DNA from: Thermophilibacter immobilis
GTDB taxonomy: Bacteria; Actinomycetota; Coriobacteriia; Coriobacteriales; Atopobiaceae
Length of the DNA: 64,000 nucleotides
Reading direction: 5' to 3'
Assembly (NCBI RefSeq): GCF_015277515.1
Contig: NZ_CP063767.1
Coordinates: 1,550,001 to 1,614,000, forward strand
The position numbers and the translations under genes are program-made. The notes beneath the pieces were generated by a model, which was not told the DNA's origin, searched no databases, and saw only the letters and a list, made by a program, of their open reading frames with translations. Shown piece after piece: positions 6,378 to 24,174 of the stretch. Within the stretch, counting starts at the first letter, position 1. Each line of letters starts with the position of its first letter.

Positions 6378-6815
6378 ATGTGCACGTGGAGCCGTCAGCT
6401 TATTCTGCAGGATGTCATCTTGGCCCTGGTCATCAACACGAGCGCGACGCTGCTCACGGGAACTCCACTCGCATGGTCCACGTGGTACCCCTTCACCTGC
6501 GTCGCCTTCATGACTAACGTCATTGCCCAGCTGCTTTTGCCTGCGGGCTCCTGGGCCCACACGCTTACCTCTGCCTTGGGAAATGCAAGCTGGCGGATCT
6601 ATGCCCAGATATTCTTGGAGAACCTCGTCTTCGTCACGATCATCTCTCTTATGGAGGCGTTCACACAGGTGGGTGTCGCGGGCATGCTCGATGCGTGGTG
6701 GCCGACCTACCTCTGGCTCGTGCTCATCGGCTACGTGACCTCCGTCATACTCTATCTGGCGTTCAAGCCGCGCAGCACGACGTACGAAAAAACGAGGAGC
6801 ACCGAGCTCAAGTAG
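6378..6815 (+). CDS. Small integral membrane protein of unknown function
   Basis: A 145-residue protein with about four hydrophobic segments (near residues 8-28, 34-55, 76-95 and 105-130) and a basic C-terminal tail. The ATG at 6378 follows AAGGGA. Upstream in-frame codons lack a ribosome-binding site. The layout, including the late VLIGYVTSVILYLAFKPR segment, resembles the broken membrane gene at 23635-24174, suggesting paralogues. It converges on the acyl kinase operon. I do not know its function. Confidence 0.65.
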   Translation: MCTWSRQLILQDVILALVINTSATLLTGTPLAWSTWYPFTCVAFMTNVIAQLLLPAGSWAHTLTSALGNASWRIYAQIFLENLVFVTIISLMEAFTQVGVAGMLDAWWPTYLWLVLIGYVTSVILYLAFKPRSTTYEKTRSTELK

Positions 6816-6850: not shown

Positions 6851-7978
6851 TCAGACTTCGTCAGCGAATCCCGTAAACACCGGAATCCCCGTGTAGACAC
6901 GTGCCTGCTCCTCCCCGTCCAGCACGCGACAGGCACCCGCAGCCATTGCCTCAAGCTCGAACTCACCAGGATAGGCCGTGACCGGCGCTATCCAGTCACA
7001 TCTGCGTCTGATGTCAGCGACCAGGCCCTTGTTCCTCACCATGCCGCCTCCCAGGAGAATCCCGTCCACCCGACCTTCAAGCGCACAGGCCATCGAGCCA
7101 ATCCCCTTGCAGATCTGGTAGACCATGGCGTCCCACGCGCGACGGGCGGGGACGTCACCCATGGCGGCGCGCTCACTCACCTCAAGTGCGTCCGACGTGC
7201 CGAGCAGATCAACAAAGCCGCCCGCTCGGGTGCAGAGAGCGCGCACGTCAGCCGCGTCGTGCTCGCCAAGGTAGTCGAGAAGGTCGACCACGGGCACCGC
7301 TCCGCAACGCGTCGGCGCCATGGGCCCTTCGCCACCCACGATGTCGTAGCCGTCCATCATCCGGCCGTGCCGATGCGCCGAGATCGATATCCCGCCCCCG
7401 ATGTGACAGATGACGAGGTTGCACTCCTCGTAGGGACGACCGAGCGTGCACGCGTGGCGAACAGCGGTCTCCTTGAGGTTGAGCGCATGAAGGTGCACGT
7501 GGCGGTACACACCCCGTATGCCCGTCATGCGTGCGAGGTCGCAGAGTTCGTCGGTGTCCGGTGGGTTCACCACGAAGGCCGAGCGTCCCCCCGCCCGCTC
7601 CGCGAGCTCGTGAGCGAGCTGGCTGCCAAGCTGAGCGGGATGCTGGACGCCGTTGACACCCATGCGCGCGTCGCGCAGCAGGAGGGCATCCACGACATAC
7701 GTACCGCCCTCGATCGATACCAATCCCCCTCCGCGCCCCACGAAGGCGTCAATCGAGAAGAGCTCGATCTCATGAGCGTCGAGCGCCGACAGAATAGTCT
7801 CCCGCCGGTAGGGCAGCTGCGCCGAGATGCTCTCGAACTCCGCGAGGCGTGCGGCGGAGTGCGAGACGTTCTCCGAGAAGACGCACGCGTCCCCCTCGAA
7901 GAGACCGACCTTGGTCGAGGTGGAGCCGGGGTTGACAGCGAGTACGCGCCACGCGCGTTCCGTCCCCTTGCCTGCCAC
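6851..7978 (-). CDS. buk: Butyrate kinase-type acyl kinase
   Basis: A 375-residue ASKHA-fold acyl kinase. It opens with RVLAVNPGSTSTKVGLFE, the phosphate-binding signature of butyrate/acetate kinases, and later shows CHIGGGISISAHRHGRMMD and LLGGGMVRNK. These enzymes convert acyl phosphate plus ADP to the carboxylic acid plus ATP. The GTG start lies 2 bp after the stop of the acyltransferase gene, indicating translational coupling. Chain-length specificity (butyrate, isobutyrate or other) cannot be read from sequence. It is the last gene of the thiolase operon. Confidence 0.85.
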   Translation of the reverse strand: MAGKGTERAWRVLAVNPGSTSTKVGLFEGDACVFSENVSHSAARLAEFESISAQLPYRRETILSALDAHEIELFSIDAFVGRGGGLVSIEGGTYVVDALLLRDARMGVNGVQHPAQLGSQLAHELAERAGGRSAFVVNPPDTDELCDLARMTGIRGVYRHVHLHALNLKETAVRHACTLGRPYEECNLVICHIGGGISISAHRHGRMMDGYDIVGGEGPMAPTRCGAVPVVDLLDYLGEHDAADVRALCTRAGGFVDLLGTSDALEVSERAAMGDVPARRAWDAMVYQICKGIGSMACALEGRVDGILLGGGMVRNKGLVADIRRRCDWIAPVTAYPGEFELEAMAAGACRVLDGEEQARVYTGIPVFTGFADEV

Positions 7979-7980
7979 GG

Positions 7981-8988
7981 CTACCGCGCTCCCCGGGCCT
8001 GGGCGCGCACGCAGCTCATGACCACGTTGCCCACGATTTCGGAGACCGGGGCGGAACGCGAGCAGTCGCAGACTATCTTCTTAAAGCCCTGGAGCATGGG
8101 TCCGTAGGCGTCGGCGCGGGCGAGGTTCTGGATGATTTTGACTCCGATGTTGCCAACGTTGATGTCCGGCCAAATCACGATATTGGCGCGTCCGGCGACG
8201 TCGCTTGCGCGGCGAACCTTCTTGGCGGCCACGTCTGGACGAACGGCCGCGTCGAACTGAAGCTCCCCGTCGATCTTGAGGTCCGGCCGGCGCCCCTGGG
8301 CAAGGTCGCGAGCAGCACGGACCTTGTCCACGAGATTGGACTCCTCGGAGCCGTCGGTGGAGTGGCTGAGCAAGGCGCAGCGCGGCTCCCAGCCCGTGAG
8401 GGCCTCCACGGTGTCGCAGGTAGCGATGGCTATGGAGGCGAGCTCGGAGGGATCGGGGTCCACGCACACGGCAGAGTCGCCAAAGGCGAGAAGGCCTCCC
8501 TCGCCTCCCTCCCATCCGGGGACGTCGGCAATGCCGCAGGAGCTCACGACATCCACTCCAAGATCCAGGCCTACGATCGTCTGGGCAGCGAGGATGATGT
8601 CGCCCGTGGCCGAGGAGATGCCGGCAAAGGTCACGTCCACGTCACCGAGCACCTGCATGATGAGCGCGTGCTCGAGGGGGCGCGTCATGCGGCGAGCGAC
8701 GCCCTTGGCCTTATAGGGGCAGTCGGGTCGCGCGAGGTAGCGCGCGGCGACGCGTGCGTTCTCTTCCTCGTCGGACACGTCGATCACCTCGACGCCCGCA
8801 AGCGAGATGCCGCGCTCCTCGGCCAGTCCGCGCAGGACCTCGCCCTTGCCCACGAGCATGCACTCGGCGAGGCCGGCAGACGTGAGCTCGGCCACGGCAC
8901 GCATCATCGTCTCGTTGTCGGCCTCGGGAAAGGCGACGCGCTGCGGGCGCCAGGCCGCTCGCTCGCGCAGGGTCTGCATGAGGTCCAC
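7981..8988 (-). CDS. Phosphate acetyl/butyryltransferase family protein
   Basis: A 335-residue member of the PTA/PTB family, which exchanges CoA for phosphate on an acyl-CoA. Family landmarks include RVAFPEADNETMMRA near the N-terminus, NIVIWPDINVGNIGVKIIQN, and YGPMLQGFKK with the SAPVSEIVGNVVMSC tail. The GTG start is 4 bp after the stop of the acyl-carrier-protein gene and the downstream kinase follows after 2 bp. Together with the kinase it makes an acyl-CoA to acyl phosphate to ATP route. Whether acetyl, butyryl or a branched acyl group is used is unknown. Confidence 0.85.
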   Translation of the reverse strand: MDLMQTLRERAAWRPQRVAFPEADNETMMRAVAELTSAGLAECMLVGKGEVLRGLAEERGISLAGVEVIDVSDEEENARVAARYLARPDCPYKAKGVARRMTRPLEHALIMQVLGDVDVTFAGISSATGDIILAAQTIVGLDLGVDVVSSCGIADVPGWEGGEGGLLAFGDSAVCVDPDPSELASIAIATCDTVEALTGWEPRCALLSHSTDGSEESNLVDKVRAARDLAQGRRPDLKIDGELQFDAAVRPDVAAKKVRRASDVAGRANIVIWPDINVGNIGVKIIQNLARADAYGPMLQGFKKIVCDCSRSAPVSEIVGNVVMSCVRAQARGAR

Positions 8989-8992
8989 GGGA

Positions 8993-9229
8993 CTACTCCA
9001 TCTCGTCGGCGACGCGCTCGACGAGCTCCCCGACGGTCTTCATGGTCATGACCTCACGGATGGGGACCTCGGCGTCGAGCTCGTTCTCAATCATCGACGT
9101 GAGCGCGATCATCTTCATAGAGCCCTTGCCGAGCTCCTCGAAGGTGGTCTGGACGGTGATGCCGCCGTCGTAGTGATAGGCGGAGGCCGCAAACTCGGCG
9201 ACCTTGGAAAGAATCTCATCGTGGGACAT
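8993..9229 (-). CDS. Acyl carrier protein-like protein
   Basis: A 78-residue acidic protein with the four-helix acyl-carrier layout. The phosphopantetheine serine is expected within LGKGSMKMIAL (Ser37), in place of the common DSL. The C-terminal helix reads VMTMKTVGELVERV. It is encoded between an OB-fold protein and the phosphate acyltransferase, away from any fatty-acid-synthesis genes, so it is probably a dedicated carrier for this operon. A distant AcpS gene (24578-24952) could modify it. Confidence 0.8.
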   Translation of the reverse strand: MSHDEILSKVAEFAASAYHYDGGITVQTTFEELGKGSMKMIALTSMIENELDAEVPIREVMTMKTVGELVERVADEME

Positions 9230-9282
9230 GGCGGTTCCCTTCTCATTTGAAATATAATGTGACGCGCCAGGACCATGAGCCC

Positions 9283-9702
9283 CTAGTCGAGCTCGAAGCA
9301 GAGTTCCTTATAGCTAGGACGGTCAATGACGCGAGCGTGGACGCCCACGGTCTCGTGCGCCATGAGGCGCGCGCGAATCTGGGGGGCGCTCTTCTTGCTG
9401 ATGCCAAAGATCACGTACGTGTACTGGGGCCCCTCGTCGAGCTCGACCGCCCCGTAGGCATACTTGCCGACCTCCCTGAGATAGGGCTTGTCGTTTTGAG
9501 GGCCCGGCACCATGAAGTCGATGAGACGCCCGTGGCCCGAGACCTCGCACCACTCGGTCTCGTGATACCCACAGGCGTTGCAGGCCAGGTGCGGAGGGAA
9601 CTCGATGGCCCCGCACTCCTTGCACCGACGCCCGTAGAACTTGTTCTCTTCGAGTCCCTCGTAGAACCTCTTGACGATGGGCTCCATCTGATCAAGTCTC
9701 AT
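9283..9702 (-). CDS. Zn-ribbon/OB-fold (DUF35-type) protein, thiolase partner
   Basis: A 139-residue protein. The N-terminal rubredoxin-like zinc ribbon is CKEC...CNAC (about residues 23-39), followed by the OB-fold beginning WCEVSGHGRLIDF. Proteins of this family bind acyl-CoA and form complexes with thiolases of the SCP2/HMG-CoA-pathway type. The gene lies 12 bp downstream of a thiolase gene, fitting that partnership. No catalytic motif of its own is visible. Confidence 0.85.
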   Translation of the reverse strand: MRLDQMEPIVKRFYEGLEENKFYGRRCKECGAIEFPPHLACNACGYHETEWCEVSGHGRLIDFMVPGPQNDKPYLREVGKYAYGAVELDEGPQYTYVIFGISKKSAPQIRARLMAHETVGVHARVIDRPSYKELCFELD

Positions 9703-9714
9703 GCTGTGCCTCCT

Positions 9715-11004
9715 CTAGGCCTCAACGGTGCGCAGGATCTGGCAGCGCACGTTCTGCGAGCCACCGAATCCCCTCAGGAACGTGGTCTGGGGAATCTGGG
9801 CCATCTGAGTGGCGCCCGCCGCGCCGCGCATCTGCTTGACGGCCTCGTAAATATCGGCGAGTCCCGAAGCCCCATGCGCATGACCGAAGTTGCATCGACC
9901 GCCGTGCGGATTGATGGGCTTGTCGCCGTCATAGGCCGTGCGGCCGTCGATGGCATAGCGCCAGGCCTCGCCGCGCGGGAGGTAGCCGCACTCCTCGGCG
10001 GAGGCTATCTCAGAGGCGAGAAAGAAGTCGTTGCACATGAAGAGGTCAATCTCGTCCGGCGAGACGCCCGTAAGCTTGTAGACCTGCTTCGAGGCGATCG
10101 AGGTCGCCCAGTGCTCGTTGTGCACGAGCCCGGCCTCGACGGCGGAGGCCCCGGTGCCCAGAACCTCCACCAAAGCGTGAGGGACGCCTAGGGCGCGGGC
10201 CTTCTCGGTGGGCATGACCACGAGAGCGGCCGCGCCGTCGCACTTCTTCTCGAAGCCGGTGACGCGCAGATACTGCGTGACGCGCGGGTTGTAGACACTC
10301 TTGAGGTACTCGTCGGCCGAGTCCATCCCAACGGCTGCGGCGTCCTGCTCGATCGTGGTGTCGTACCAGCCGAGCGGGTTGGCCACGGCACCACGTCGCA
10401 GCGACTTGGTAAGACCGTTCAGCGCCTCGTCTATCTGCTCGGGCGCGAGGTCGTACTGCATGGAGTACTCGTTGATCCAGTTGTCGAAAGACACGCCGAA
10501 GGCACCGTCGAGGGGACGGCCGTACGCGCGGTCGTAGATCTTGTCCAGCGAAGGAATCATGACCTCAAGCGGAAAGTCCTGACGAACGTGAGACGGCATG
10601 TGCTCGACGGGCAGCGTCGAGGCCAGATCGACGGCACCGGACAGCACCACGTCGTAGGTGCCGGACGCCACGGCCATGACGGCTTGTTCGAGTGCCACGT
10701 AACCGGTGCAGCACGCCTCGGAGTGGTGGACGGAGCCCTTCCCCCGCATGCCGAACCAGTCGGCAACCTGCATGTTAGGTGTGATGGAATCGCTGATGAG
10801 ATAGGGATTTGCAGCGCCATGGTAGAAGAAGTCCACGTCACGTGGCTCCAGGCCAGCGTCGGAGATCGCCTCGAGGGCGGCGTAGCCAAAGGCCTCTCCC
10901 TCCCCCATGCCCTGGGTCTCGGGGTGCTCCTCGAAGTCCTTGAACGGGGTGCAGCCCACCCCCACGATGGAGACGGAGCGCATGTTCCTTCCAAGCTTGA
11001 CCAT
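9715..11004 (-). CDS. Thiolase-family (SCP2/lipid-transfer type) acyltransferase
   Basis: A protein of about 429 residues in the non-decarboxylating thiolase superfamily. It has SIVGVGCTPF at the start, the nucleophile region HSEACCTGYVALEQA, the DLFMCNDFF segment, and the C-terminal NPHGGRCNFGHAHGASGL corresponding to the usual NPxGG...GHPxGATG. The ATG at 11004 follows AAGGATGTGATG; a longer in-frame extension to 11112 has no support. It heads an operon with the OB-fold protein, ACP, phosphate acyltransferase and acyl kinase. Whether it cleaves or condenses 3-oxoacyl substrates is unknown. Confidence 0.85.
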   Translation of the reverse strand: MVKLGRNMRSVSIVGVGCTPFKDFEEHPETQGMGEGEAFGYAALEAISDAGLEPRDVDFFYHGAANPYLISDSITPNMQVADWFGMRGKGSVHHSEACCTGYVALEQAVMAVASGTYDVVLSGAVDLASTLPVEHMPSHVRQDFPLEVMIPSLDKIYDRAYGRPLDGAFGVSFDNWINEYSMQYDLAPEQIDEALNGLTKSLRRGAVANPLGWYDTTIEQDAAAVGMDSADEYLKSVYNPRVTQYLRVTGFEKKCDGAAALVVMPTEKARALGVPHALVEVLGTGASAVEAGLVHNEHWATSIASKQVYKLTGVSPDEIDLFMCNDFFLASEIASAEECGYLPRGEAWRYAIDGRTAYDGDKPINPHGGRCNFGHAHGASGLADIYEAVKQMRGAAGATQMAQIPQTTFLRGFGGSQNVRCQILRTVEA

Positions 11005-11200: not shown

Positions 11201-11842
11201 CTACCGCTCGGCCCAGTCGTGACCCTCGTCGCCAAAGGGAGAGACGGGATGCGTGCGCACGTTCTCCTCGTCGAGGAAGAACGGGGCGTAGAAGAGGCGA
11301 TTCAGAATTCCCGCCACGACCTCCGGGGCCACGTCGGGGCGCTTCTCGAGCCAGTACTGGATCGTGTTGTGGTGGCCCGCCAGCACGAAGGCAAGATAGA
11401 AGTCGCGATAGACCTCCGACCCCTGAACCTCGCAGAGCCGCTCACGGAAGTGGTCGTGCATGAGGATTGTGGCCTTGTGCACGAACTGCGGATCTCCGTG
11501 GGGACCGTTCAGAGCCACGACCTTGTCGCGACGCTCGTGGAGCAGCTCCATGCGACGGACCATCGTGGGGGTGGGGTCGAGCTCGGACTGGCTGAAGCGC
11601 GCTTTGAGCGCATAGCTGTTGATGTCGTGCATATTGGCCAGAAGGTCCGTCTCGAACCCCTTGACCACGGCGTCAACGCTATCAAAGCGTCGATAGAAGG
11701 TCGAGCGGGAGATTCCCGCCAATCGCGTGACGGCCGCCATGCGGATGTCGGGGATGTCAGTGCTCTCCATGAGCGAGAAGACCGCGTCCTCGACGCGCAC
11801 GTCGACGGCGTCTCGCCTGTCGTCGTGGCCCCATGCCGTCAT
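11201..11842 (-). CDS. TetR-family transcriptional regulator
   Basis: A 213-residue protein. The N-terminal helix-turn-helix reads MAAVTRLAGISRSTFYRRF (about residues 35-53) and is followed by a helical ligand-binding domain typical of the family. It is encoded upstream of, and in line with, the thiolase operon and divergently from the PucR-type regulator, with 92 bp between their starts. It is a likely regulator of the acyl-conversion genes; the ligand may be an acyl-CoA, which is inference from context. Confidence 0.85.
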   Translation of the reverse strand: MTAWGHDDRRDAVDVRVEDAVFSLMESTDIPDIRMAAVTRLAGISRSTFYRRFDSVDAVVKGFETDLLANMHDINSYALKARFSQSELDPTPTMVRRMELLHERRDKVVALNGPHGDPQFVHKATILMHDHFRERLCEVQGSEVYRDFYLAFVLAGHHNTIQYWLEKRPDVAPEVVAGILNRLFYAPFFLDEENVRTHPVSPFGDEGHDWAER

Positions 11843-11934: not shown

Positions 11935-13575
11935 GTGGAGGTTCGCGAGCTCATCGCACGTCTGCCCGAGGGAGCCGTCGGCCCCCTGTGCGACCTCGAG
12001 CCGGGTGCGCATGTTCACAGCGTCGAGCTCGTCGAGCGCGCGAGGAGCATGACCCGCCCCGACGTGCTCTACCTCCTTCCCGCCACGGAGCCCCTGGACC
12101 TCACCCCCGGGCAGCCGGTGCTCAACTGCGTGCTGGTGGGGCCTGGGTCGATGGCTCCCGATACCGTCGCTCCCGAACGCCTGAACCTGCTGCACTCTCG
12201 CACCTTGACCGACCCCAGCGAGCTCTACGAGCGGCTCCAGGACCTGCTTGCCACAGACGATGCCGTCTGCCGGGCCACGGAGCGGCTCGTAGCTGCGCTC
12301 ACCTCCGACCGGGGCTTGCAGTACCTGGTTGAGGAGGCCGCCACGGTGCTGGGCAACCCGCTCGCAGTCGTAGACCCGAGCTACCACTACGTTGCCCGGG
12401 CTGGCTTCGAGGTCTCCCCCGACGATAACTCCCCCTTCGCGCGCGTCACGCGCGAGGAGCTGCGCTACGGAACCATCCTCGAGGACGGCGTGGACTACAT
12501 CTCGGGGGCGGGCATCGATGATGAGCTTGCGCGCACGCGGGGATCCATCGCGCATCGCAACGAGCTTCTGGATATGGACACCTTGATGCAGCAGGTAATG
12601 GTGCACGGCGTCTGCCTCGCACGCGTAATCCTGCTCGCGCGCACCCGAACTCTGAGCCCCGTGGACAGCCTGGTCTTCTCCCGTCTTGTACCCCTGATAG
12701 GGCAGGAGCTCCAAAAGGGCGAGGTCTTTACTGCGGGGAGCACGCAGATGGGCGCCTACTTTCTGAGTCGCCTCCTCGATGATGCGCATCCCAGTGCGTC
12801 TGCGACCCAAAGGCACCTCGAGCTCCTGAGCTTCAAGCCTCTTTCCACGCTCTTCATGCTCTGTCTGCGTCCCCGCGTCGGCACGCTCGACACCTGCACG
12901 ACATCGAGCATCGAGCAGCAGCTCCAGCCCTTGCTCGTACACAGCCTCGTCACCTTGCACGAGGGGAGTCTTGTGGTTCTTGTCAGCCGCAGCAGCGGTC
13001 CCTCCCTCACGACCCTGGACAAGAGGACCCTGCGCGCCGTGGCAACGACCAATGACCTTCTCGTAGGGGTAAGCAACGCCTTCGCCGACATCTGCGAGGC
13101 GCGACGCTACCTCTCTCAGGCGCGGGCGGCGTCCCGCTATGGCTCGACCTTTCCCAAGGTTCTTGACGACGACGGGGTCTATCACTTCTGCGAGTATAAC
13201 TATCTGGAGATGCTTGACCTGTGCAGCGAGCACAAGAACCTGCTCGACTACTGCCACCCCGCAATCGAGACGCTCTGGAGACACGACAGCGAGCATGGCA
13301 GCGAGCTCGTGGAGACGCTCTTCGCCTATCTGCAGAACGGATGCAACACCGCCCGCACGGCACTCCTGCTGAGCATCCACAAGAACACGCTGCTCTATCG
13401 TCTTGGTCGCATCCGTGAAATAACCCACAATGACCTGACCTCTGGTGAGGACCTCTTCTTGTTCCAGCTCTCGATTCGCGTCCTGATCTTCCTCGATCTG
13501 CTCGAGCCCCGAACACGCCCACGCACGAGCGGGGACTTGCGCGCTGCCCCTAAAGACAAGCACGCAAGTCGTTAG
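11935..13575 (+). CDS. PucR/CdaR-type transcriptional regulator
   Basis: A protein of about 546 residues. The C-terminal PucR helix-turn-helix domain is clear: LFAYLQNGCNTARTALLL followed by SIHKNTLLYRLGRIREIT. The region before it resembles a GGDEF-like CdaR domain. The N-terminal part (DLEPGAHVHSVELVERA) resembles a PucR-type sensory domain. The GTG at 11935 follows GGAAGGGAAAGG; an ATG at 11833 would overlap the divergent TetR gene. It is convergent with the flavodoxin-fold reductase gene. Regulated genes are unknown, with the neighbouring acyl operon or redox genes as candidates. Confidence 0.8.
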   Translation: MEVRELIARLPEGAVGPLCDLEPGAHVHSVELVERARSMTRPDVLYLLPATEPLDLTPGQPVLNCVLVGPGSMAPDTVAPERLNLLHSRTLTDPSELYERLQDLLATDDAVCRATERLVAALTSDRGLQYLVEEAATVLGNPLAVVDPSYHYVARAGFEVSPDDNSPFARVTREELRYGTILEDGVDYISGAGIDDELARTRGSIAHRNELLDMDTLMQQVMVHGVCLARVILLARTRTLSPVDSLVFSRLVPLIGQELQKGEVFTAGSTQMGAYFLSRLLDDAHPSASATQRHLELLSFKPLSTLFMLCLRPRVGTLDTCTTSSIEQQLQPLLVHSLVTLHEGSLVVLVSRSSGPSLTTLDKRTLRAVATTNDLLVGVSNAFADICEARRYLSQARAASRYGSTFPKVLDDDGVYHFCEYNYLEMLDLCSEHKNLLDYCHPAIETLWRHDSEHGSELVETLFAYLQNGCNTARTALLLSIHKNTLLYRLGRIREITHNDLTSGEDLFLFQLSIRVLIFLDLLEPRTRPRTSGDLRAAPKDKHASR

Positions 13576-13622: not shown

Positions 13623-14597
13623 CTAGGCACGCTCGATCTCGAGCGTGGGGAACTCCATCTTCGCATAGCGCTCCATGAGAGGCTTGACCTCGTCAAGATG
13701 CAAGAAGAAATCGTCGCGCGTCTTGTTGATCTCGTTGAGGTGCTCGGCGCGAGCGGCGTCATTGTTGCGGTCACGTATCAGGCCGTTCTCCGCGACCTTG
13801 AGCTTGGGACGACCGGTCGTCTCATCGATCGCAAGGTCGCCGCCGGCACCGCACACGGCGCACTCCCAGGGGAACTCGATCCCGTCCCAGTGCTTGTCTC
13901 CCGGATAGATGAGTGAGCTGTGGCAGTTGGGGCACACGCCGTCGTCCGCATCCCCGAGCCAGCCACGCTCCTCGACCGGCGTCTGGATGGCGCGCACGAT
14001 GTTCTCGCCCATCTTGCGGGCGCGCGGAAGCTGGTCCTCCCAGACAAGGACGTTACCTGGCCGACCGTTGCGCTGCGCGAGAAAGCGGTCGACCACCGTG
14101 AGAGACATGGTGAACATCGTGGCCTGCAGGCTCTCAAGGGCGAGCGACTGCCAGTCGTGCATGGAGCCGCCCACGGAGATGAGCCCCGCCACGGTGTGGG
14201 GATTCTCCTCGACTGCTCCGATGGCAAGCAGGAACGAAAGCTCGTAGGCGAGGAAGCGCTGAGCGAAGCGTATGTACAGCGAGCTGGGGACGAGATCGTA
14301 GGTGGGAGCCGCAAAAATGATGCCCTGACAGGTTTGCATCTCGGAGACGAGGGCGTCCACGTCGTCCTTGTCCTTGAGGACGCAGCCGTGATACTCCTTC
14401 TGCAGACCGGCGCCCACCTTGCCCATCTGCATCGTGCATCCCTCGCAACCGGTGCAGGGAAGTATGTTGTAGTCAAAGAGATTGACGAGCTCGACCTCGC
14501 CGCCGGCCTCTTGGACCGCGCAGAGCGCCTCCTTGGCCAGGATCTCCCCGTTGCCCCCATGACGCCCCGCACAGACTGCCATAACCTTGAAAGACAT
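13623..14597 (-). CDS. Flavodoxin-fold NAD(P)H-dependent oxidoreductase with C-terminal Zn ribbon
   Basis: A 324-residue protein. An FMN-reductase/iron-sulfur-flavoprotein-type N-terminal domain starts MSFKVMAVCAGRHGGNGEIL and has a cysteine cluster PCTGCEGCTMQ near residues 47-57 and the flavin loop AAPTYDLVPSSLY. A C-terminal extension carries two Cys pairs (CPNC and CAVCGAGG) resembling a zinc ribbon. The ATG at 14597 follows GGAGAGGGG. Its electron partner and substrate are not evident. A short gene at 21286-21675 resembles its C-terminal part. Confidence 0.8.
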   Translation of the reverse strand: MSFKVMAVCAGRHGGNGEILAKEALCAVQEAGGEVELVNLFDYNILPCTGCEGCTMQMGKVGAGLQKEYHGCVLKDKDDVDALVSEMQTCQGIIFAAPTYDLVPSSLYIRFAQRFLAYELSFLLAIGAVEENPHTVAGLISVGGSMHDWQSLALESLQATMFTMSLTVVDRFLAQRNGRPGNVLVWEDQLPRARKMGENIVRAIQTPVEERGWLGDADDGVCPNCHSSLIYPGDKHWDGIEFPWECAVCGAGGDLAIDETTGRPKLKVAENGLIRDRNNDAARAEHLNEINKTRDDFFLHLDEVKPLMERYAKMEFPTLEIERA

Positions 14598-14744
14598 CGT
14601 CGCCCCTCTCCCGAGCATCTGGCACGGACCCTCCGCACACACTATTGATGCTAGGACGGAGCAGATGGGCGTTCACCGTTTGCGGAGACGACGCTTGGGG
14701 CATGGGAACGCCCCGCTTCGTGCACACGGACAAAGTGGGGCGCA

Positions 14745-14949: not shown

Positions 14950-15972
14950 TCACCGTACGAACGTCGTGTCTATACGCTCAAGCTCGTTCCACAGGGCAGC
15001 GCGGGCGGAGCACTCGAGCCGGGCGCGCTCACGCGAGAGCCTGCGCACGGCCAGCCCCAGGTCATCTCTTATGATCGAGAAGAGCCCGTCCATGAAGTCC
15101 AGGTCGTCGTATTGAGCCTTGCGAATGGTGTAGTCCTTGTAGCCGTGCGCCTCCAGTTCGTTTCTTCGCAGGTCATCCTCGTCCGCGTGATCCTCGTCAT
15201 CATGCCAGCGCCCCTTGTAGTCAAGGGCGATGCCCCTGAACGGCATGCGCACGCCAGGCTCGCTCCGCGATCCCAGAAGCAGGAGGTCGGGCTTGCGGGT
15301 CCGCAGCTGACGCACCTCGGCCGATATGCATTCCAGCTCAAGGGGGCTGTTGAGCACGACCTCGCCCAGCCGGTAGCCACCCTGGGAGAAGCCCCGCGTC
15401 GCACGCAGGAAGAGCCGTGCCTCCATTGGAGAGGCCGCCTGCTCGCAGATATCAGCCAGGGCACGGCGGACCGGACGGGTTCCCCGTGCCGGCCCGAGCA
15501 GGTCGAGGAAGACGCCCACCTTCTCGGGCGTCACCAGGGGACGGGCCCTTTGCACGAGCCCCTTCTCCACAGAGGGGTCGATGGCATAGAGCCCACAGAG
15601 CTCGTCAAGGAGCATCACAAGTTCGAGGTGCGTGAGACCCTCGGACATCTGGGCGCACAGCAGGAGCGGAGAGGCGCTGCGGACGCCGGGCGCGAGCTGG
15701 ACGAGCGCGCCTGCAGGAAGGGATCCGGTCAAAAGGTGTGGCCGCACCGAGCGCGAGACGTGGCGGCCGGCGCGCTCCGAGACGAGAACGTCCACGGGTC
15801 CGTCAAGGGCGGCGAGCTGTGGGCAGCATGCCCTCGCCCGCTCCAGTTCCTCGGGCGAGGGCATGCGACCCGGGATATCCGTGGGGCATGAGGCGGCCAT
15901 AGCGAGGTGACGAGGGAAGTAGGGTCTTCTCATCACCTCGAGGGCCGTGGTATGTGAGAGCACGATGTCCAT
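14950..15972 (-). CDS. Hypothetical protein with candidate PD-(D/E)XK nuclease C-terminus
   Basis: A 340-residue protein, named function unknown. The C-terminal third contains, in order, Glu184 (SPMEARLFLRA), Asp229 (RKPDLLLLGS), Asp251-Tyr-Lys253 (ALDYKG) and an RNELEAHGY segment, which fits the spacing of DUF559/Vsr-type PD-(D/E)XK nucleases. The N-terminal half (SHTTALEVMRRPYF, VDVLVSERAGRHVSRS, LELVMLLDELCGLYAI) resembles an AbiEi-like layout that I recall from coriobacterial proteins. Repeat copies B and C flank the gene in the same orientation. Nuclease activity is inferred and a defence or toxin role is only possible. Confidence 0.6.
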   Translation of the reverse strand: MDIVLSHTTALEVMRRPYFPRHLAMAASCPTDIPGRMPSPEELERARACCPQLAALDGPVDVLVSERAGRHVSRSVRPHLLTGSLPAGALVQLAPGVRSASPLLLCAQMSEGLTHLELVMLLDELCGLYAIDPSVEKGLVQRARPLVTPEKVGVFLDLLGPARGTRPVRRALADICEQAASPMEARLFLRATRGFSQGGYRLGEVVLNSPLELECISAEVRQLRTRKPDLLLLGSRSEPGVRMPFRGIALDYKGRWHDDEDHADEDDLRRNELEAHGYKDYTIRKAQYDDLDFMDGLFSIIRDDLGLAVRRLSRERARLECSARAALWNELERIDTTFVR

Positions 15973-16327: not shown

Positions 16328-17419
16328 CTACCGACAGCGAATGGGGATGGGGCGCGGAGGCGTGCGGGGCTTATCGGCACCGGCCCTCACGATGGCCTTC
16401 TCTTCGCAGACGGAGACACACGCGCCGCACTGCGTACAGGCGCGCTGGTCGATCACGTGGACGAAGCGGGGTTTGCCGAGAATGGCCTCGTCCTCGCAGG
16501 CGTCCAGACAGTCCCCGCAGCCCACGCAGAGGCTGGGAAGGATGTGATAGGTCATGTACGCGGCGCACTCGCTGGCCGGACAGACCTTCTTGGTAAAGTG
16601 CTGCTCGATCTCGCTACCAAAGCCGTCTAGGAACCCCATGGTGGTAGCCGCCATGATGCGGCCCTGCTCACAGAGGCTCTGGGTCTTCATCACGGGACAG
16701 AGGTCGCGCAGAAGGGCCACGTCAGCGGCCTTGCCGCGCTTGGAGCAGACATCTGCGAGCGTGACGTGAGCCTGGTAGCTGCCCTCGTAGCCAAAGACGC
16801 AGCGCCCGCAGCTCTCGTGACGGTAGAGGGAGAGGATCTCCTCGAGCGCGTGGGCCATACAGGACGTGGCCCCAAAGACGCGCACGTAGTCGGAACCCAG
16901 CTCGACGGGGGCCGCGCCATCGCCGGCCACGTAGAGCGCCCCGTTCGGATACCCTACGTAGACGGCCTTGGCGTCCGTGACGCCCGAGGCCTCCACGAGT
17001 GCCGTGACCGTCGTCCTTCGCGGCATCTCCACGGGGGCGTCCGCGCCCTCGAGCCACGTCCAGCGCATGTCGGGCGAGCCGAGGAGCTCCTCGCCCGCAA
17101 GCAGCCGCAGGCCTTGCGTGGTACCCGTGGGCGCCGATGGCAGGGGCTTCTCGCCAGCCAGGACGCAGGCGCAGGCCGTGTCGTTATCGTAGACGAAGCC
17201 CAGAGAGCCGTCCGTCTCTACGACGCGCGCGCGTCCGGCGAGAAGGCCGGCGAGCTCCGCGACCACAGGCTCTCCCGCAGGTACGAGCGCGGACACGTCC
17301 TCACCCGCGTCGGCGAGCTCGCGAATCTTGGCCGCCGCGCCCGCAACGTCCCACTTGAGCAGGTACAGAGCGACCGGGGCCGCCTGGTAGGTCGGCATGA
17401 AGCTGACAATCGTCGTCAT
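16328..17419 (-). CDS. NuoF-like ferredoxin-type iron-sulfur protein
   Basis: A 364-residue protein. The central part resembles the SLBB-like (VTALVEASGVTDAKAVYVGY) and C-terminal Fe-S regions of NuoF/HydB-type subunits (ESCGRCVFGYEGSYQ...RDLCPVMKTQSLCEQG). Two 4Fe-4S ferredoxin motifs follow (CVGCGDCLDAC and CTQCGACVSVC). The N-terminal FMN/NADH-binding domain of true NuoF is not evident, and the third Cys of the usual CxxCxxC is replaced (CGRCVFG), so this is probably an electron-transfer rather than NADH-binding subunit. Its ATG overlaps the stop of the upstream NuoG-GltD gene as ATGA. Confidence 0.75.
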   Translation of the reverse strand: MTTIVSFMPTYQAAPVALYLLKWDVAGAAAKIRELADAGEDVSALVPAGEPVVAELAGLLAGRARVVETDGSLGFVYDNDTACACVLAGEKPLPSAPTGTTQGLRLLAGEELLGSPDMRWTWLEGADAPVEMPRRTTVTALVEASGVTDAKAVYVGYPNGALYVAGDGAAPVELGSDYVRVFGATSCMAHALEEILSLYRHESCGRCVFGYEGSYQAHVTLADVCSKRGKAADVALLRDLCPVMKTQSLCEQGRIMAATTMGFLDGFGSEIEQHFTKKVCPASECAAYMTYHILPSLCVGCGDCLDACEDEAILGKPRFVHVIDQRACTQCGACVSVCEEKAIVRAGADKPRTPPRPIPIRCR

Positions 17420-19560
17420 CGCGCGCTCACTTCCTCGTAGTCGGTCCACAGGCGCGGCGTCTGGAGCCTGAGTCTGAGATCGCACTGCAGGCAGCGGGAT
17501 GCCTCAGCCGTGGCCTCGTCCTCGGAGAAAGGGCACTCGAAGACCTCGAAGGTGCACACGCGCTCACCTGCGGGCGCGAACTGCGGAGAGACGCGTCCCT
17601 CGTAGAAGCTCTGGGGGGCGGGGCCTAGGCGGTCGGGGCCCTCCTCGCGCTCGGTAAGCTGCTCGGTGATGTCCCCATCGCCGCCTAGGAAGCGGTCGAT
17701 GGAGACCGCGGCCTCGCGACCCTGCTCGATGGCGGCGACCACGGACTTGGTGCCGGTGACGCAGTCGCCGGCGGCCCAGACGCCCTCCATGCTCGTGGCA
17801 AGCTCGTCGTCGGTTGCCACGTAGGGCCCGTGGGTGAGCTCGAGGCCCATCTGGTCGGTCCCCTCGGGCCTCTGGCCTACGGCAAAGATGACGTGGTCGG
17901 CGGCAAGGGCGAGCTCGCCGTCCTCCACGAGCTCGGTCACCGGCCTGTGGTTCTCGTCAAAGTAGAAGCGCGCGATCTTGTGGAGCGTGACGGACCCCAC
18001 GCGCCCGCTTCCCGGCTCGGACTCGTTGAGCGAGACGAACGAGTAGGCGTCGTGGAGCTCGACGCCCTCCTCGGAGGCCTCGGCGCGCTCTTCAGCGGTG
18101 GAGGTCATCTTGTCGAGCGACTCGAGGCAGGCCACGTCAACCTTCTGGGCGCCCAGGCGCACGGCGGTGCGTGCGCAGTCATAGGCGACGTTTCCGCCCC
18201 CGAGCACGACCACGCGACCGGAGGCGTCGAACGGCTCGCCAAGGCGGGCGCGCTTGAGGAAGTCAGTGTTCACGTAGACGCCGTCGAGGTCAGACCCCTC
18301 CATGGGAAGGCGCGCCCCAGCATGGGTGCCCACGCTCACGAGCACGGCGTCGTAGCCCTGAGTGAGAAGCCCCGCCGGGTCGCCCACATGGCGCCCGCAG
18401 AGGAGCTCAACACGAGGCTCATCGTCGGATCCCTGCGAGATCTCGCGAATGATAGCAACCTCGTTGTCCACGGTCGCATCAGAAAGGCGATAGGCCGGAA
18501 TGCCGTAGCGCATCTGTCCGCCGGCCTTCTCGTTGGCCTCGAAGACGCTCACGCGGTGACCTTTCTCGGCGAGGTAGAGCGCCGCGGTGAGGCCTGCGGG
18601 GCCGGCGCCCACCACGGCGACGCGCCTTCCGGTGAGCCGGTCGTGACGCACGCGAGCCTTCCACTCCCCCGTGTCGCGCACGGCGGCGGAGCGCTTGAGG
18701 CGGCAGATGGAGAGGGGTGCGGTGAGTCCGTTGCGCTTGCAGGAGTCCTCGCACGGATGGACGCAGATAGATCCGAGCGTCTCGGGGAAGGGGACCTTCT
18801 CGCGCACGACGGCGGTGGCGCGCTCCCACTCACCGTTCTTGACGTGACGCAGGTAGCGCGGGACGTCCGTGTGGGCCGGGCAGCCCGAGCGACAGGGCAC
18901 CACGTTGTCGGCACGGCTGCGATCATCCTGCGCGAGCCCGACGATGTCCACGATGGAGCCTGTGGGGCAGACCTCGACGCACGCCCCGCAGAAGCGACAT
19001 CCCGCCTTCTCGAGCGAGACCCCGCCGTCGGTGCCGATGCGGATGCCGTCGGGAGTGTGCTGATAGTCGAGGACGCCCACGCCACGCAGCTCGCGACAGG
19101 CGCGCACGCAGCGGCCGCAGCGGATGCAGCGCGTGAACATGTGCGTGATGAGCGGGTTGGAGTCGTCGGTGGCCACCGGGCGGCTCTTGACGTGCCAGCG
19201 CGTAGGCGAGACTCCCATGAACTGGTACATCGACTGCAGCTCGCACATTCCGTACTTAAGGCAGCCGGTGCAGTCGGTGGGATGCGTCGCCAAGATGAGC
19301 TCCATGGCCATGCGGCGCACGCGCTCCGCATGTTCGCCCCCGACCTCGACGCGCATGCCCTCGCGGGCGGTGGTCTTGCAGGCGCACACCGGTTCCGTGT
19401 CACCGTCGATCTCGACCATGCAGAGGCGACAGCCCCCCACGGCCTCGAGGTCGGGATGCTTGCAGAGGTGCGGGATGAAGATGCCGGCGTCAAGCGCAGC
19501 GTCGAGGACGCTCTGCCCCTCGCGCGCGTTGACCTGTCGACCGTTTATGGTCAGCTTCAC
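17416..19560 (-). CDS. NuoG-GltD-type FAD/NAD(P)-binding iron-sulfur oxidoreductase
   Basis: A 714-residue multidomain protein. In order: 2Fe-2S ferredoxin (CKHPDLEAVGGCRLCMVEID), NuoG-type His-Cys cluster (HPTDCTGCLKYGMC), two 4Fe-4S motifs (CIRCGRCVRAC, CRFCGACVEVC), a GltD-type N-terminal region (CPAHTDVPRYLRHV...CVHPCEDSCKR), an FAD site (VAVVGAGPAGLTAALYLAEKG), an NAD(P) site (VVVLGGGNVAYDCARTA), and GVWAAGDC. Such proteins connect NAD(P)H to ferredoxin or a partner reductase. The GTG start at 19560 follows GAGGGGAGA; a longer upstream frame lacks support. It forms a two-gene operon with the NuoF-like gene. Confidence 0.85.
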   Translation of the reverse strand: MKLTINGRQVNAREGQSVLDAALDAGIFIPHLCKHPDLEAVGGCRLCMVEIDGDTEPVCACKTTAREGMRVEVGGEHAERVRRMAMELILATHPTDCTGCLKYGMCELQSMYQFMGVSPTRWHVKSRPVATDDSNPLITHMFTRCIRCGRCVRACRELRGVGVLDYQHTPDGIRIGTDGGVSLEKAGCRFCGACVEVCPTGSIVDIVGLAQDDRSRADNVVPCRSGCPAHTDVPRYLRHVKNGEWERATAVVREKVPFPETLGSICVHPCEDSCKRNGLTAPLSICRLKRSAAVRDTGEWKARVRHDRLTGRRVAVVGAGPAGLTAALYLAEKGHRVSVFEANEKAGGQMRYGIPAYRLSDATVDNEVAIIREISQGSDDEPRVELLCGRHVGDPAGLLTQGYDAVLVSVGTHAGARLPMEGSDLDGVYVNTDFLKRARLGEPFDASGRVVVLGGGNVAYDCARTAVRLGAQKVDVACLESLDKMTSTAEERAEASEEGVELHDAYSFVSLNESEPGSGRVGSVTLHKIARFYFDENHRPVTELVEDGELALAADHVIFAVGQRPEGTDQMGLELTHGPYVATDDELATSMEGVWAAGDCVTGTKSVVAAIEQGREAAVSIDRFLGGDGDITEQLTEREEGPDRLGPAPQSFYEGRVSPQFAPAGERVCTFEVFECPFSEDEATAEASRCLQCDLRLRLQTPRLWTDYEEVSAR

Positions 19561-19658: not shown

Positions 19659-21143
19659 CTAGTACTCGAACAGGCCTGCCGCCGCGTTCTCCCCGGCAAT
19701 ACGCCCGGAGTTGAGGCAGAAGCCCATGGTGTTGCCCGGGATGCAGTAGTTGTAGGAGTCACCATAGATGGCGCAGGCGTCTGTGCCCACGCAGTACAGA
19801 CCGTCGACAACCTTGTAGTCGTCGGTCATGACCTCCATCTTGTGGTTGATGAGCACGCCTCCCAGGGTGCCGTAGGCACCAACGTACTGCTTGCAGCAGT
19901 AGAACGGGCCCTTCTCGAGCGGCTGCATGTACTCGCGCTCCTTCTCGAAGAGGGAGTCCCAGCCCTCGGTGCACATCTGGTTGTACTCCTCGACGTTGGC
20001 GAGAAGTCCGTCGGCGTCGATGCCGGCCTTCTGGGCGAGCTCCTCGAGCGTGTCGGCCTGGCAGATGGGCTCGTAGCCGTCGGCGAGGTCGCGCTCCCAC
20101 TGCTCGTCGAAGCCCTCGTAGAGGTCGGCCGGGTGGACGTGGGAGACGATGTCGGGACCGCTCTTCTTCCAGTGCTTGAGCATCTTGGCATCGAAGATGG
20201 CATAGCCGACCTTGCCGGGGAGGTGATTAATCGCGTTGCCCACGAAGGTGGTGTTGAAGATCTCGTCTTCGGGCATGAAGCGCTCGCCCAGGCGGTCGCA
20301 CCAGTAGCAGGGCTGGCGGAAGGCCCCCTCAACGTAGAAGTGGTTCATGTTATCCGGAATCTGGTACATCATCTCCATGCTCACGGGCGTGTGGCCGCCC
20401 CCCACGGCATGGCACATGTTGATGCCGTCGCCGTCCATGCCGGGCACGGCGAAGCTAAAGAGGTCCTTGCCCCACTCGAAGCCCAGGTTCTCTTTGATGA
20501 GCTTGGCGTTGTTGCCAAACCCACCCGTGGCCACGATGACCGACGAGCAGGAGATCTCATACTCCTCGCCGTCCTTGTCCTTAGCGGCAACTCCGCAGAC
20601 CTTGCCCCCGTCGTCGGTGAGAAGACCGGTGGCCGGGGTCTCGAACATGAACTCCACGCCCAGGTCCTGGGCACGCTCGGTCATGCGCTTAGTCATGGTG
20701 GTCGCCGCACGCGGGCCGGGCTCGGACCCGTCCTCGGGCTGGACGACGTGCCAGGTGTACTCGCCGTCGGCGTAGGCGCGGGTGCGCTCGCGAGCGCGGA
20801 AGGCCGGGCGGACGCTGTTGAACACGACGCCCATGTCCTGCAGCCACGCGATGGTGTCGCCGCTCTTGAAGTAGTAGTCGCGCACGAGGCGGGCATCCAC
20901 CTGATAATGCGTGTAGAACATGTGCTTGCGGAAGAGCTCTCCGGGCGTCACCTCGATCATCGACGCCTTCTGGACCGGCGATCCGGCCGCAGCCGGGCCC
21001 ATGCCCATGTTGGCGGCCCCACCGGTGGTGGATGACTTCTCGAGGGTGAGAACCCTCGCGCCGCTCTCTGCGGCAGCGACGGACGCGGCCAAGCCGGAAA
21101 GGCCTGCCGCAACGACAACGACGTCGGTCCCGAGTTGCTTCAT
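19659..21143 (-). CDS. FAD-dependent fumarate-reductase-type flavoprotein
   Basis: A 494-residue protein of the fumarate reductase/3-ketosteroid-dehydrogenase flavoprotein family. It has the N-terminal dinucleotide-binding stretch DVVVVAAGLSGLAASVAA, EKSSTTGGAANMG, VIVATGGFGNN, and C-terminal YGTLGGVLI and NTMGFCLNSGRIAGENAA. The first Gly of the usual GxGxxG is Ala (AAGLSG). No signal peptide or heme motif is seen, so it is probably cytosolic. Coriobacteria have many such reductases with different alkene substrates. The substrate here is unknown. The ATG at 21143 follows AAGGAGG. Confidence 0.8.
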   Translation of the reverse strand: MKQLGTDVVVVAAGLSGLAASVAAAESGARVLTLEKSSTTGGAANMGMGPAAAGSPVQKASMIEVTPGELFRKHMFYTHYQVDARLVRDYYFKSGDTIAWLQDMGVVFNSVRPAFRARERTRAYADGEYTWHVVQPEDGSEPGPRAATTMTKRMTERAQDLGVEFMFETPATGLLTDDGGKVCGVAAKDKDGEEYEISCSSVIVATGGFGNNAKLIKENLGFEWGKDLFSFAVPGMDGDGINMCHAVGGGHTPVSMEMMYQIPDNMNHFYVEGAFRQPCYWCDRLGERFMPEDEIFNTTFVGNAINHLPGKVGYAIFDAKMLKHWKKSGPDIVSHVHPADLYEGFDEQWERDLADGYEPICQADTLEELAQKAGIDADGLLANVEEYNQMCTEGWDSLFEKEREYMQPLEKGPFYCCKQYVGAYGTLGGVLINHKMEVMTDDYKVVDGLYCVGTDACAIYGDSYNYCIPGNTMGFCLNSGRIAGENAAAGLFEY

Positions 21144-21285: not shown

Positions 21286-21675
21286 CTACGCGCGCGACGG
21301 CGCCGTCGGTGCGATTGCGTCGCGGTAGTGGGCGACGCGCGCCTTGTAGGCGTCGGTCTTCTTCATCTGGGCGAGCCTGCCCTCGTTCTCGGCGATGTCC
21401 TTGCCGTGGAGCTCCTTGCCGGACAAGACGTCGTGGACGCGATGGAGCTGATCCTCCGGATAGGTGATCTCGACTGCCCCGTCGGCGACCGAGATCGTTC
21501 CCTCGAGGCCGCAGGCGCAACAGATGGCCTTGTCGGTGCCCGGGACGAGGTAGAAGTCGTTGCAGTTGCAGTGGAGGCAGACGCCGCTTCTAGTACGCGC
21601 CGTCTTCGACAACGCCGAATACGCCAATATCTGCTCGGGTGTCTCCATGGTAGATTCGCTCACGAGCACCATCAC
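21286..21675 (-). CDS. Zn-ribbon protein, possible remnant of a flavodoxin-fold reductase
   Basis: A 129-residue frame with two Cys pairs (CLHCNC, CCACG) and a C-terminal GRLAQMKKTDAYKARV helix. The order of features matches the C-terminal extension of the reductase at 13623-14597, but no flavodoxin domain precedes it. The sequence from 21676 to 21884 shows no related frame. It may be an independent small protein or the surviving tail of a truncated gene. The start is uncertain (21675 or 21648). Confidence 0.5.
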   Translation of the reverse strand: MMVLVSESTMETPEQILAYSALSKTARTRSGVCLHCNCNDFYLVPGTDKAICCACGLEGTISVADGAVEITYPEDQLHRVHDVLSGKELHGKDIAENEGRLAQMKKTDAYKARVAHYRDAIAPTAPSRA

Positions 21676-22792: not shown

Positions 22793-23638
22793 CTAGTATG
22801 GCACGCGAGCGAGGCGCGCGCTTCGCTCGCCGGGCGCTGTGATGACGGCGCGAAAGTCGGGGCTGCCCGCGTCATAGGTTTTGCAGGGGCACAGGTGGCA
22901 GATGCCGGTCCAGCTGTCCACGATGCCGTGCTGCCACGCAAAGCCCCGGGCGCCCTGGGCAAAGCGCGCCGCCTTGTCGAAGCTCGCGAGGTCGGCCTTG
23001 CAAAACGCGTGCGCGTGATGACCCGTGTAGAAGCGTTCGAAGTCGAGCCCCTCCATCTTTGCCAGCGCGCGACGCCACGCCGAGAGGGGCAGGCTCTCCT
23101 CGAAGCGCAGGCACATGATGGGCCTAACGGCATCGCCCGAGAACAGGACGGCCCGCTCGGGGCAGAGGTAGCCCGCCGACGCATTCGTGTGCCCGGGGAG
23201 AAGGACGCGCGTGAGGCTCAGGCCCCCGAGGTCGAGACGGTCTTTCTCCCCCACATGGGTCACCCTCGGCCGCCTCTGCGGACGTACGGGCCAGACGTTT
23301 GCCGTCTCGATAAGTCCACCGTCGAGGGCCGCGACACAAAACGCCGACGCGTTCTTCTCCGTCTCTTCCCAGTGGCCGTCCTCGCCAGCCGTCATCGCCA
23401 CGCGCTCGAAGCGATAGGCGCCCGAGGCGTGGTCCGGGTGTCGGTACGTGAGGAGCACGTCCACGGGCTGGCCTCCTGCGAGTGCCTTGGCTACCGCGCG
23501 CACGTCACCGACCCCGGACATGGTGTCCACAAGCGCGGCGCGGCGCTCTCCTACCACAAGGTAGGAGCGACAGCCCAGCGGGTCGGACAGGGCAAAGACG
23601 CCGTGGTCGAGCTCGTCCACTTGAATGGGATCCGTCAT
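22793..23638 (-). CDS. MBL-fold metallo-hydrolase with altered metal motif
   Basis: A 281-residue metallo-beta-lactamase-fold protein. The signature reads TYRHPDHASG (Tyr65, His67, Asp69, His70), so the first His of the usual HxHxDH is Tyr. Later ligand regions remain: LPGHTNASAGY, LFSGDAV and TGHHAH. Family members hydrolyse thioesters, lactones or phosphodiesters. The altered first ligand may change the metal content. The start ATG overlaps, as ATGA, the stop of the frameshifted membrane gene upstream, which suggests they once formed an operon. Confidence 0.75.
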   Translation of the reverse strand: MTDPIQVDELDHGVFALSDPLGCRSYLVVGERRAALVDTMSGVGDVRAVAKALAGGQPVDVLLTYRHPDHASGAYRFERVAMTAGEDGHWEETEKNASAFCVAALDGGLIETANVWPVRPQRRPRVTHVGEKDRLDLGGLSLTRVLLPGHTNASAGYLCPERAVLFSGDAVRPIMCLRFEESLPLSAWRRALAKMEGLDFERFYTGHHAHAFCKADLASFDKAARFAQGARGFAWQHGIVDSWTGICHLCPCKTYDAGSPDFRAVITAPGERSARLARVPY

Positions 23639-24174
23639 GCCTCATCTCCCTCGTAAAAGAAAGCGGGCCCGCGGCTGGGCTCGGGATCCTTCATGAGACG
23701 ACGGGCAATCCCCTCGGCACGTGGTGCCCAGAGCAGAGACACCACGTAGCCGACGACCCAGCACGGCAGGAAGCTTCCCATAAGCGCCCCAGGAAATGCC
23801 GCCAGGGGGCAGCCCTTGCATGACGATGGCGTTGACGTAGGTCAAGTGAGAACGTTCACGACCACGTAGATGGTGTTGACCACCAGGTTGAGCAGCAGGC
23901 CGAACTTGAGGCCGTCGGAGGGCTTGGAGCCGCAGGCGCGGGCGAACGAGAAGCCCAGTCGCTCGGACGGTATGAACCAGCCCACGAAGAACGAGATGAC
24001 GTAGGACAGCCCTATGTTCATGAGCGTCGTGAAGAGAAGCGCCGGCACGAACGCCTTGGAGGGCAGCCCCGCGGAGCTCACTCCCAGGTAGCTCGCGACC
24101 ACCGAGACGGAGATGGCGATGAGGATGTTGGTGAGCAGGACCTTGACGAGCTTAGTGGAATTCTTCATGGGCAT
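23635..24174 (-). pseudogene. Frameshifted membrane protein gene
   Basis: An ATG at 24174 with GGAAGG upstream opens a frame of 110 residues with two or three hydrophobic segments, ending in VVVNVLT and a stop at 23842. Coding-like sequence continues in other frames: TYVNAIVMQGLPPGG in one, then GALMGSFLPCWVVGYVVSLLW to FFYEGDEA in another, ending at 23635 in an ATGA overlap with the hydrolase gene. At least two compensating frame changes are needed to join them. The reconstructed layout resembles the membrane protein at 6378-6815. A base-calling error could explain one shift but is less likely for both. Confidence 0.7.

Follow-up and report, generated by a model that had tools for sequence, protein, structure and literature searches.

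The known flavonoid pathway runs through the flavone reductase FLR, CHI, EnoR and Phy, and the energy of A-ring cleavage is lost in this established route, which uses a simple hydrolase for that step. The 2,4-diacetylphloroglucinol (DAPG) C-acyltransferase PhlABC (PpATase) combines a thiolase-fold subunit carrying a nucleophilic Cys with a DUF35/OB-fold Zn-ribbon subunit; it performs Friedel-Crafts type chemistry on acyl-phloroglucinols, described as reversible (PMC6392133). In the Ptb-Buk and Pta-Ack systems, an acyl thioester is converted to an acyl phosphate and then used to form ATP. Here we describe a five-gene operon of Thermophilibacter immobilis that resembles both kinds of system, located in a 64,000-nucleotide stretch of contig NZ_CP063767.1 (positions 1,550,001 to 1,614,000; 'the window', from whose first letter all coordinates are counted). 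Its neighbours and its co-occurrence with other genes across genomes point to flavonoid or polyphenol catabolism. With about even confidence, we hypothesize that it carries out both bond cleavage and energy conservation in an anaerobic route for polyphenols (flavonoids), in which an acyl group would pass to an acyl carrier protein (ACP), then to an acyl phosphate and finally yield ATP.

The operon lies on the minus strand and consists, in gene order, of a thiolase-like subunit of 429 amino acids (aa; 11004-9715; Pfam Thiolase_C_1, 3e-27), a DUF35/OB-fold partner of 139 aa with two CxxC pairs in its sequence (OB; 9702-9283; Pfam zf-ChsH2, 6e-7, above cut-off), an ACP of 78 aa (9229-8993; Pfam PP-binding, 1e-9), the phosphotransacylase Pta of 335 aa (8988-7981; Pfam PTA_PTB, 4e-77) and Buk, a butyrate-kinase-family acyl kinase of 375 aa (7978-6851; Pfam Acetate_kinase, 2e-17). 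The successive intergenic gaps are 12, 53, 4 and 2 bp. A first-pass annotation, made from the sequence alone, had proposed this tight operon with its order and family names, and both were borne out: no gap falls outside 2-53 bp, and Pfam and NCBIfam agree on the families. Buk scored above the butyrate-kinase cut-offs (TIGR02707, 356.7 vs 289.1; NF002834, 391.7 vs 222), and Pta, which is closer to pta than to ptb, scored below the pta cut-off (TIGR00651, 228.6 vs 311.2).

The distribution of the genes was surveyed in 297 genomes of the order, 47 of which had thiolase matches. The 37 with E<1e-100 were regarded as carrying a close thiolase, and the ten weaker ones were dropped before the co-occurrence tables were compiled by hand from per-gene search lists. 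The OB gene was present in 37/37 close-thiolase genomes (42/297 overall), and a close Buk (E<=1e-149) was found in 38 genomes, including 36 of the 37; G232, without a close Buk, carries a 46% copy at a distance of 0.8 kb, and G230 and G164 have a close Buk without the thiolase. Synteny was assessed by tblastn, with the best 80 of 276 relatives covered; basic gene calling had yielded antisense calls where loci were GC-rich. Downstream sequence of 4.5 kb or more was available for 57 related thiolase loci, the window among them: OB adjoined the thiolase in all 57 (80/81 overall) and all five genes were present in 29, indicating that the grouping is not due to chance. An ACP frame was located near the thiolase in 59/81 loci, and contig ends account for part of the remainder.

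Co-occurrence across genomes, which the first-pass annotation had put forward as a check, was confirmed by the recurrence of the same five-gene order in Olsenella, Tractidigestivibacter and Parafannyhessea (Atopobiaceae), in Collinsella aerofaciens, C. phocaeensis and one Eggerthellaceae metagenome-assembled genome (MAG), and in Streptococcus ovis, S. orisasini, S. moroccensis, S. 'caviae', Dielma fastidiosa and an Anaerolineales (Chloroflexota) MAG. The Anaerolineales locus (~14 kb) contains an FLR-like gene, MFS and PucR genes, the five genes, an FAD reductase and NuoG/NuoF-like genes. On the tree of thiolases, loci with all five genes fall both within the Coriobacteriia clade and among the rows of Streptococcus, Anaerolineales and Dielma. 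The module is patchy, with a close thiolase in 4/118 Streptococcus genomes. A plasmid search gave relatives of less than 60% identity only (28-31% among the matches listed) and was not used. In D. fastidiosa (L136:9953-11743), thiolase and OB form one fused reading frame, and ACP, Pta and Buk come immediately after it.

The window genome (one contig, 2.16 Mb) contains four ACP-family genes by family search, including that of the operon. The other three are located in a fab cluster, between plsX and rnc, and in a dlt operon, names that were assigned by eye from translations. Apart from its own ACP, the fab cluster holds FabH, FabK, FabD, FabG, FabF and others (by eye); the apparent dlt operon (L154) comprises DltA, B, C and D, likewise by eye. 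With three further carrier proteins encoded in the genome, one of them in the fab cluster, the operon ACP is a dedicated one. A role for it in type II fatty-acid synthesis was rejected, as the fab cluster has another ACP. The first-pass annotation had set its reading against a dispersal of the genes in relatives, with the ACP serving ordinary fatty-acid synthesis; instead, the genes were found to stay together. The attachment Ser of the operon ACP is present in the motif GKGSM. In alignment it matches the Ser in DSL, DSF and DSM of the other three ACPs encoded in the genome; where these have Asp in front of it, the operon ACP has Gly. AcpS- or Sfp-type transferase genes were located within 10 kb of the thiolase in 12/57 loci (tblastn). 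The genome also encodes, elsewhere, another Pta and an AckA (acetate-kinase family), which have far higher Pfam scores than the operon's pair. Central acetate metabolism was rejected as the operon's role on the basis of these scores, and the presence of two Pta/kinase pairs fits a dedicated acyl-phosphate-to-ATP route for the operon.

The thiolase-like subunit contains Cys98 and His375, which occupy the places of the thiolase nucleophile and of the GHP His, respectively, as well as a clade-conserved His62. Cys98 was present in 46/49 alignment rows, those without it (L058-L060) all being distant, and His62 in 44/49, the five others again being distant. The clade is marked by the motifs HHSEACC, NDF, GHAxxASG and RGFGGxQN, and the distant thiolases of the order by HDAF and GHPxGATG. 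Classical biosynthetic and degradative thiolases have a second catalytic Cys near the C terminus. No such Cys was seen in this protein, whose RGFGGxQN motif is without Cys, and it scored below the cut-off of every NCBIfam thiolase model among the matches listed (25 models). A structure model with a pLDDT of 90, which replaced an earlier poor one (pLDDT 74), matched a Pyrococcus furiosus thiolase (Z 48.8), an archaeal thiolase/HMGCS (48.7), MucC of MucABC (46.7), benzoylsuccinyl-CoA thiolase (46.0) and PhlC (45.9). The closest folds and sequences were thus those of the archaeal thiolase/DUF35/HMG-CoA synthase complex (6ESQ, 6ET9) and of the P. furiosus thiolase 7YVY (Z ~48-49). The operon differs from the archaeal complex in having Asn325 at the place of the HDxF His and an ACP, and no HMG-CoA synthase partner was seen.

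Membership of the thiolase superfamily, with an archaeal acetoacetyl-CoA thiolase as the nearest fold, would also agree with ordinary catabolism, in which an aliphatic 3-oxoacyl-ACP or -CoA is thiolysed to acetyl and a shorter acyl group and Pta and Buk then form ATP; the affinity of Pta to pta and the Buk score above its family cut-off are in line with this. We nevertheless consider it unlikely, since the second Cys of classical thiolases is missing and the HDxF His is replaced by Asn, a Pfam scan of 20 window proteins detected no beta-oxidation family, and the thiolase is strongly tied to FLR-type ene-reductases, as described below. The catabolic, energy-conserving route for 3-oxoacyl intermediates envisaged by the first-pass annotation is therefore upheld in part: the dedicated ACP and the Pta/kinase pair fit it, but an ordinary 3-oxoacyl chain is an improbable substrate. 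Its observation is confirmed and its interpretation partly supported.

In PhlC, changes of Cys88 or His56 abolish activity, and soaked crystals showed density compatible with acetyl-Cys88 and phloroglucinol, according to PMC6392133. His62 of the operon thiolase is only a candidate for the counterpart of His56, and the two proteins share ~21% identity. Relative to PhlABC, the operon adds ACP, Pta and Buk; a PhlA/HMG-CoA-synthase-type third subunit was absent from the 20 scanned window proteins, the rest of the genome not having been searched for it. In an alternative, biosynthetic direction, Buk and Pta would spend ATP to activate an acid and load the ACP, and thiolase and OB would C-acylate a phenol or 1,3-dicarbonyl, in a synthesis or detoxification resembling that of PhlABC or MucABC. 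PhlABC and MucABC are structural neighbours, PhlC chemistry is reversible (PMC6392133), and MFS and phosphopantetheinyl transferase genes are found nearby in several loci. This direction appears improbable, however, because the genes around the module encode ene-reductases, because a sister island contains a Phy-family hydrolase gene, and because neither a PhlA/HMG-CoA-synthase-like nor a chalcone-synthase-type family occurred among the scanned window proteins. Streptococcus orisasini (L214) also has MucC-like thiolase, DUF35-like and KAS-III/HMGCS-like genes (by eye), which appear to form a biosynthetic C-acyltransferase set of their own.

Further analysis of the neighbourhood demonstrated a close association with flavone reductase. 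The window encodes an FLR-like ene-reductase (FLRL; 13623-14618, minus strand), a full-length FLR homologue with the C-terminal Cys motif (phmmer E 4e-17; profile E 5.6e-29, profile 3-315 vs chain 1-302 of 310). FLR was the best of only two PDB matches for FLRL; the entries 7D38-7D3B are assigned to it (PMC7862272). In close relatives, the same island starts with an intact FLR orthologue (E 3e-105). FLRL is ~26% identical to these orthologues, indicating that it is a paralogue of FLR. It was detected (E<=1e-40) in 31/297 genomes, all among the 37 with a close thiolase. FLR orthologues themselves (E<=1e-60) were likewise present in 31/297 genomes, 29 of which carry the thiolase; the remaining two, G242 and G257 from the genus of the window, have a gene of the phloretin/DAPG hydrolase family PF18089 without the thiolase. 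Taking thiolase or PF18089 together, the association with FLR was 31/31 vs 13/266 (Fisher p 5e-32), and for thiolase alone 29/31 vs 8/266. When genomes were shuffled within the 12 FLR-holding genera, the observed overlaps were never reached (0/200,000). FLR and thiolase are both present but far apart in the single-contig genomes G100 (~555 kb) and G166; linkage is therefore not enough to account for the pairing. A second type of reductase also accompanies the module: the FAD reductases beside it in the window (19659-21143, minus strand) and in S. ovis had VprA (vinyl phenol reductase) as their best NCBIfam match, with E 5e-92 and 2e-96, both below the cut-off.

Olsenella scatoligenes, now Tractidigestivibacter scatoligenes, is listed in PMC8269047 among five of 94 gut species reported to degrade >20% of quercetin. 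Strain SK9K4 (L084; G236) of this species, the level at which the quercetin report is read here, carries FLR and the five genes, and its genome has no PF18089 match. Lower-identity FLR homologues in Olsenella MAGs have been noted before (PMC8398226).

Phy is an unrelated hydrolase that frees the acid and conserves no energy, and it acts on the bond that we propose for the thiolase. The FLR-bearing genomes G242 and G257 have a Phy-family gene instead of the thiolase; the window genome (G000) has no PF18089 match. In G257, a ~14-kb stretch contains the PF18089 gene and FLR together with an FAD reductase, cut by the end of the stretch, that is 85% identical to that of the window. A further Pta/Buk pair lies in this stretch as well, as do a CocE/S15 hydrolase, a second ACP and a phosphopantetheinyl transferase. 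A second module consisting of a CocE/S15 hydrolase, another ACP, a phosphopantetheinyl transferase, Pta and Buk was observed in sister genomes (L159:1-14205 and L166:5031-10917); that of L159 also holds FLR and a DAPG/phloretin-hydrolase-family gene.

Several observations weigh against the proposed polyphenol cleavage. The energetics of aryl-ketone thiolysis are uncertain; by our rough estimate the reaction is near equilibrium, and the pull of later steps would therefore matter. In the model, the fold scores lie close together with an archaeal thiolase first, and PhlC is not singled out. The Pta sequence is uninformative on bulky acyl groups. An adjacent intact ACP is missing from 11/57 loci (46/57 with, hand-corrected), and the thiolase/OB pair may therefore also use CoA; the thiolase tree group labelled as ACP-less wrongly includes L120, L122, L126, L132, L139 and L142, where the ACP is upstream. 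The FLR of the window is truncated to a C-terminal fragment (21286-21672, minus strand), which is 57-66% identical to the intact copies of relatives. Of 23 genomes tested, seven have the module without FLR (E<=1e-10), namely four Streptococcus, Dielma, one C. aerofaciens and one Eggerthellaceae MAG, FLRL not having been searched genome-wide in Firmicutes; the C. aerofaciens genome has FLRL on another contig. Flavones are therefore not a universal substrate. PF18089 and thiolase occur together in G072 and G269, and Catenibacillus scindens has both kinds; tested alone, the two showed no significant association or exclusion (2/37 vs 7/260). Finally, a second Pta/Buk pair of the sister-genome kind was not found in the window genome.

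A last group of contrary loci bears on the nature of the substrate. Ten loci from Catenibacillus, Faecalicatena and their kin have the thiolase/OB pair together with an aldo/keto-reductase, and most also with xylose-isomerase-like and VOC genes; for one isomerase-like neighbour, homology to 2-hydroxy-3-keto-glucal hydratase was found. Four ruminant-gut Coriobacteriia loci, ~75% or more identical to one another, have a Gfo/Idh gene nearby. The enzyme might accordingly cleave a sugar-derived 1,3-dicarbonyl, the product of a 3-keto-glycoside, rather than the aglycone. For the operon this is quite unlikely, given that an intact ACP adjoins the pair at only one of the ten loci (L130), that neither Pta nor Buk was seen at any of them, two of the ten being contigs of very short length, and that the five-gene version accompanies FLR or VprA-like reductases in many relatives. 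In C. scindens (L112:11698-11842), the ACP frame downstream of OB is a 47-codon remnant without the Ser region. In view of the FLR-less modules, the sugar-type loci, the genomes with both types and the lack of an intact FLR in the window, 'polyphenol-type ketone' is better supported as a description of the substrate than 'flavone'.

Polyphenol catabolism of another kind is encoded by the phloroglucinol cluster of C. scatologenes, whose thiolase acts on acetoacetyl-CoA after ring cleavage; the term 'acyl carrier' does not occur in the available text of PMC10470551. This lower pathway was rejected as the operon's role, no such family being found among the scanned window proteins.

From protein families and gene context, we infer the substrate, the direction, the ACP as acyl acceptor and the ATP yield of the proposed polyphenol route as follows. 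Ene-reductases, either FLR or FLRL and a VprA-like FAD reductase fed by NuoF/NuoG-like proteins, would reduce the plant compound, giving an aryl ketone of the dihydrochalcone type. In the thiolase/OB complex, Cys98 would attack the ketone, and the C-C bond beside the phloroglucinol ring would be broken in a PhlC-like retro-Claisen or retro-Friedel-Crafts reaction. Release of the phloroglucinol ring would leave the acyl group on Cys98, from which the phosphopantetheine arm of the dedicated ACP would take it over. Pta would then replace the ACP by phosphate, and Buk would convert the acyl phosphate to ATP and a free (hydroxyphenyl)alkanoic acid. Compared with Ptb-Buk and Pta-Ack, the sequence would thus start from an acyl-ACP. 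More tentatively, we suggest that in gut anaerobes an energy-conserving flavonoid cleavage replaces phloretin hydrolase, that the CocE/S15 sister module is a parallel case with an unrelated cleavage enzyme, and that substrate-level phosphorylation on a carrier protein is a general plug-in of polyphenol pathways.

The remaining genes of the neighbourhood are partly regulatory. A TetR-like regulator (11201-11842, minus strand; C-terminal TetR_C_8 alone matched in Pfam) and a divergent PucR-type regulator (11935-13575, plus strand; HTH_30 and GGDEF_2) had been described by the first-pass annotation as flanking the operon; both genes are present, but on one side only, upstream. A NuoF-like 4Fe-4S protein (16328-17419), probably an electron-transfer subunit, and a NuoG/GltD-like Fe-S flavoprotein (17416-19560), probably serving electron input, are both encoded on the minus strand, as are a metallo-beta-lactamase-fold hydrolase (22793-23638), found near the module in several relatives, and an AcpS-type phosphopantetheinyl transferase (24578-24952). 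The latter is possibly housekeeping, as a PEP carboxylase gene is only 13 bp away. Small open reading frames at 6378-6815, on the other side of the operon, and at 23842-24174 have no Pfam match and accompany the module in many relatives; they look membrane-like by eye and may have a role in transport. The 340-aa protein adjoining FLRL (14950-15972) gave no Pfam match and only chance-level PDB matches, and its homologues were found in a few close relatives. A promoter scan found nothing, and terminator matches fell inside genes and were uninformative.

A search of titles and abstract openings in the openly accessible literature listed no paper in which a DUF35 thiolase, an ACP and Pta/Buk are linked to flavonoids. 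If the proposed polyphenol route is correct, gut bacteria would harvest ATP from dietary polyphenols, and the degradation of quercetin by T. scatoligenes without a detected phloretin-hydrolase-family gene would be explained. The operon would then be a rare case of a carrier protein that serves catabolism and yields ATP, and its genes would serve as markers for a polyphenol capacity that Phy-based surveys would miss.

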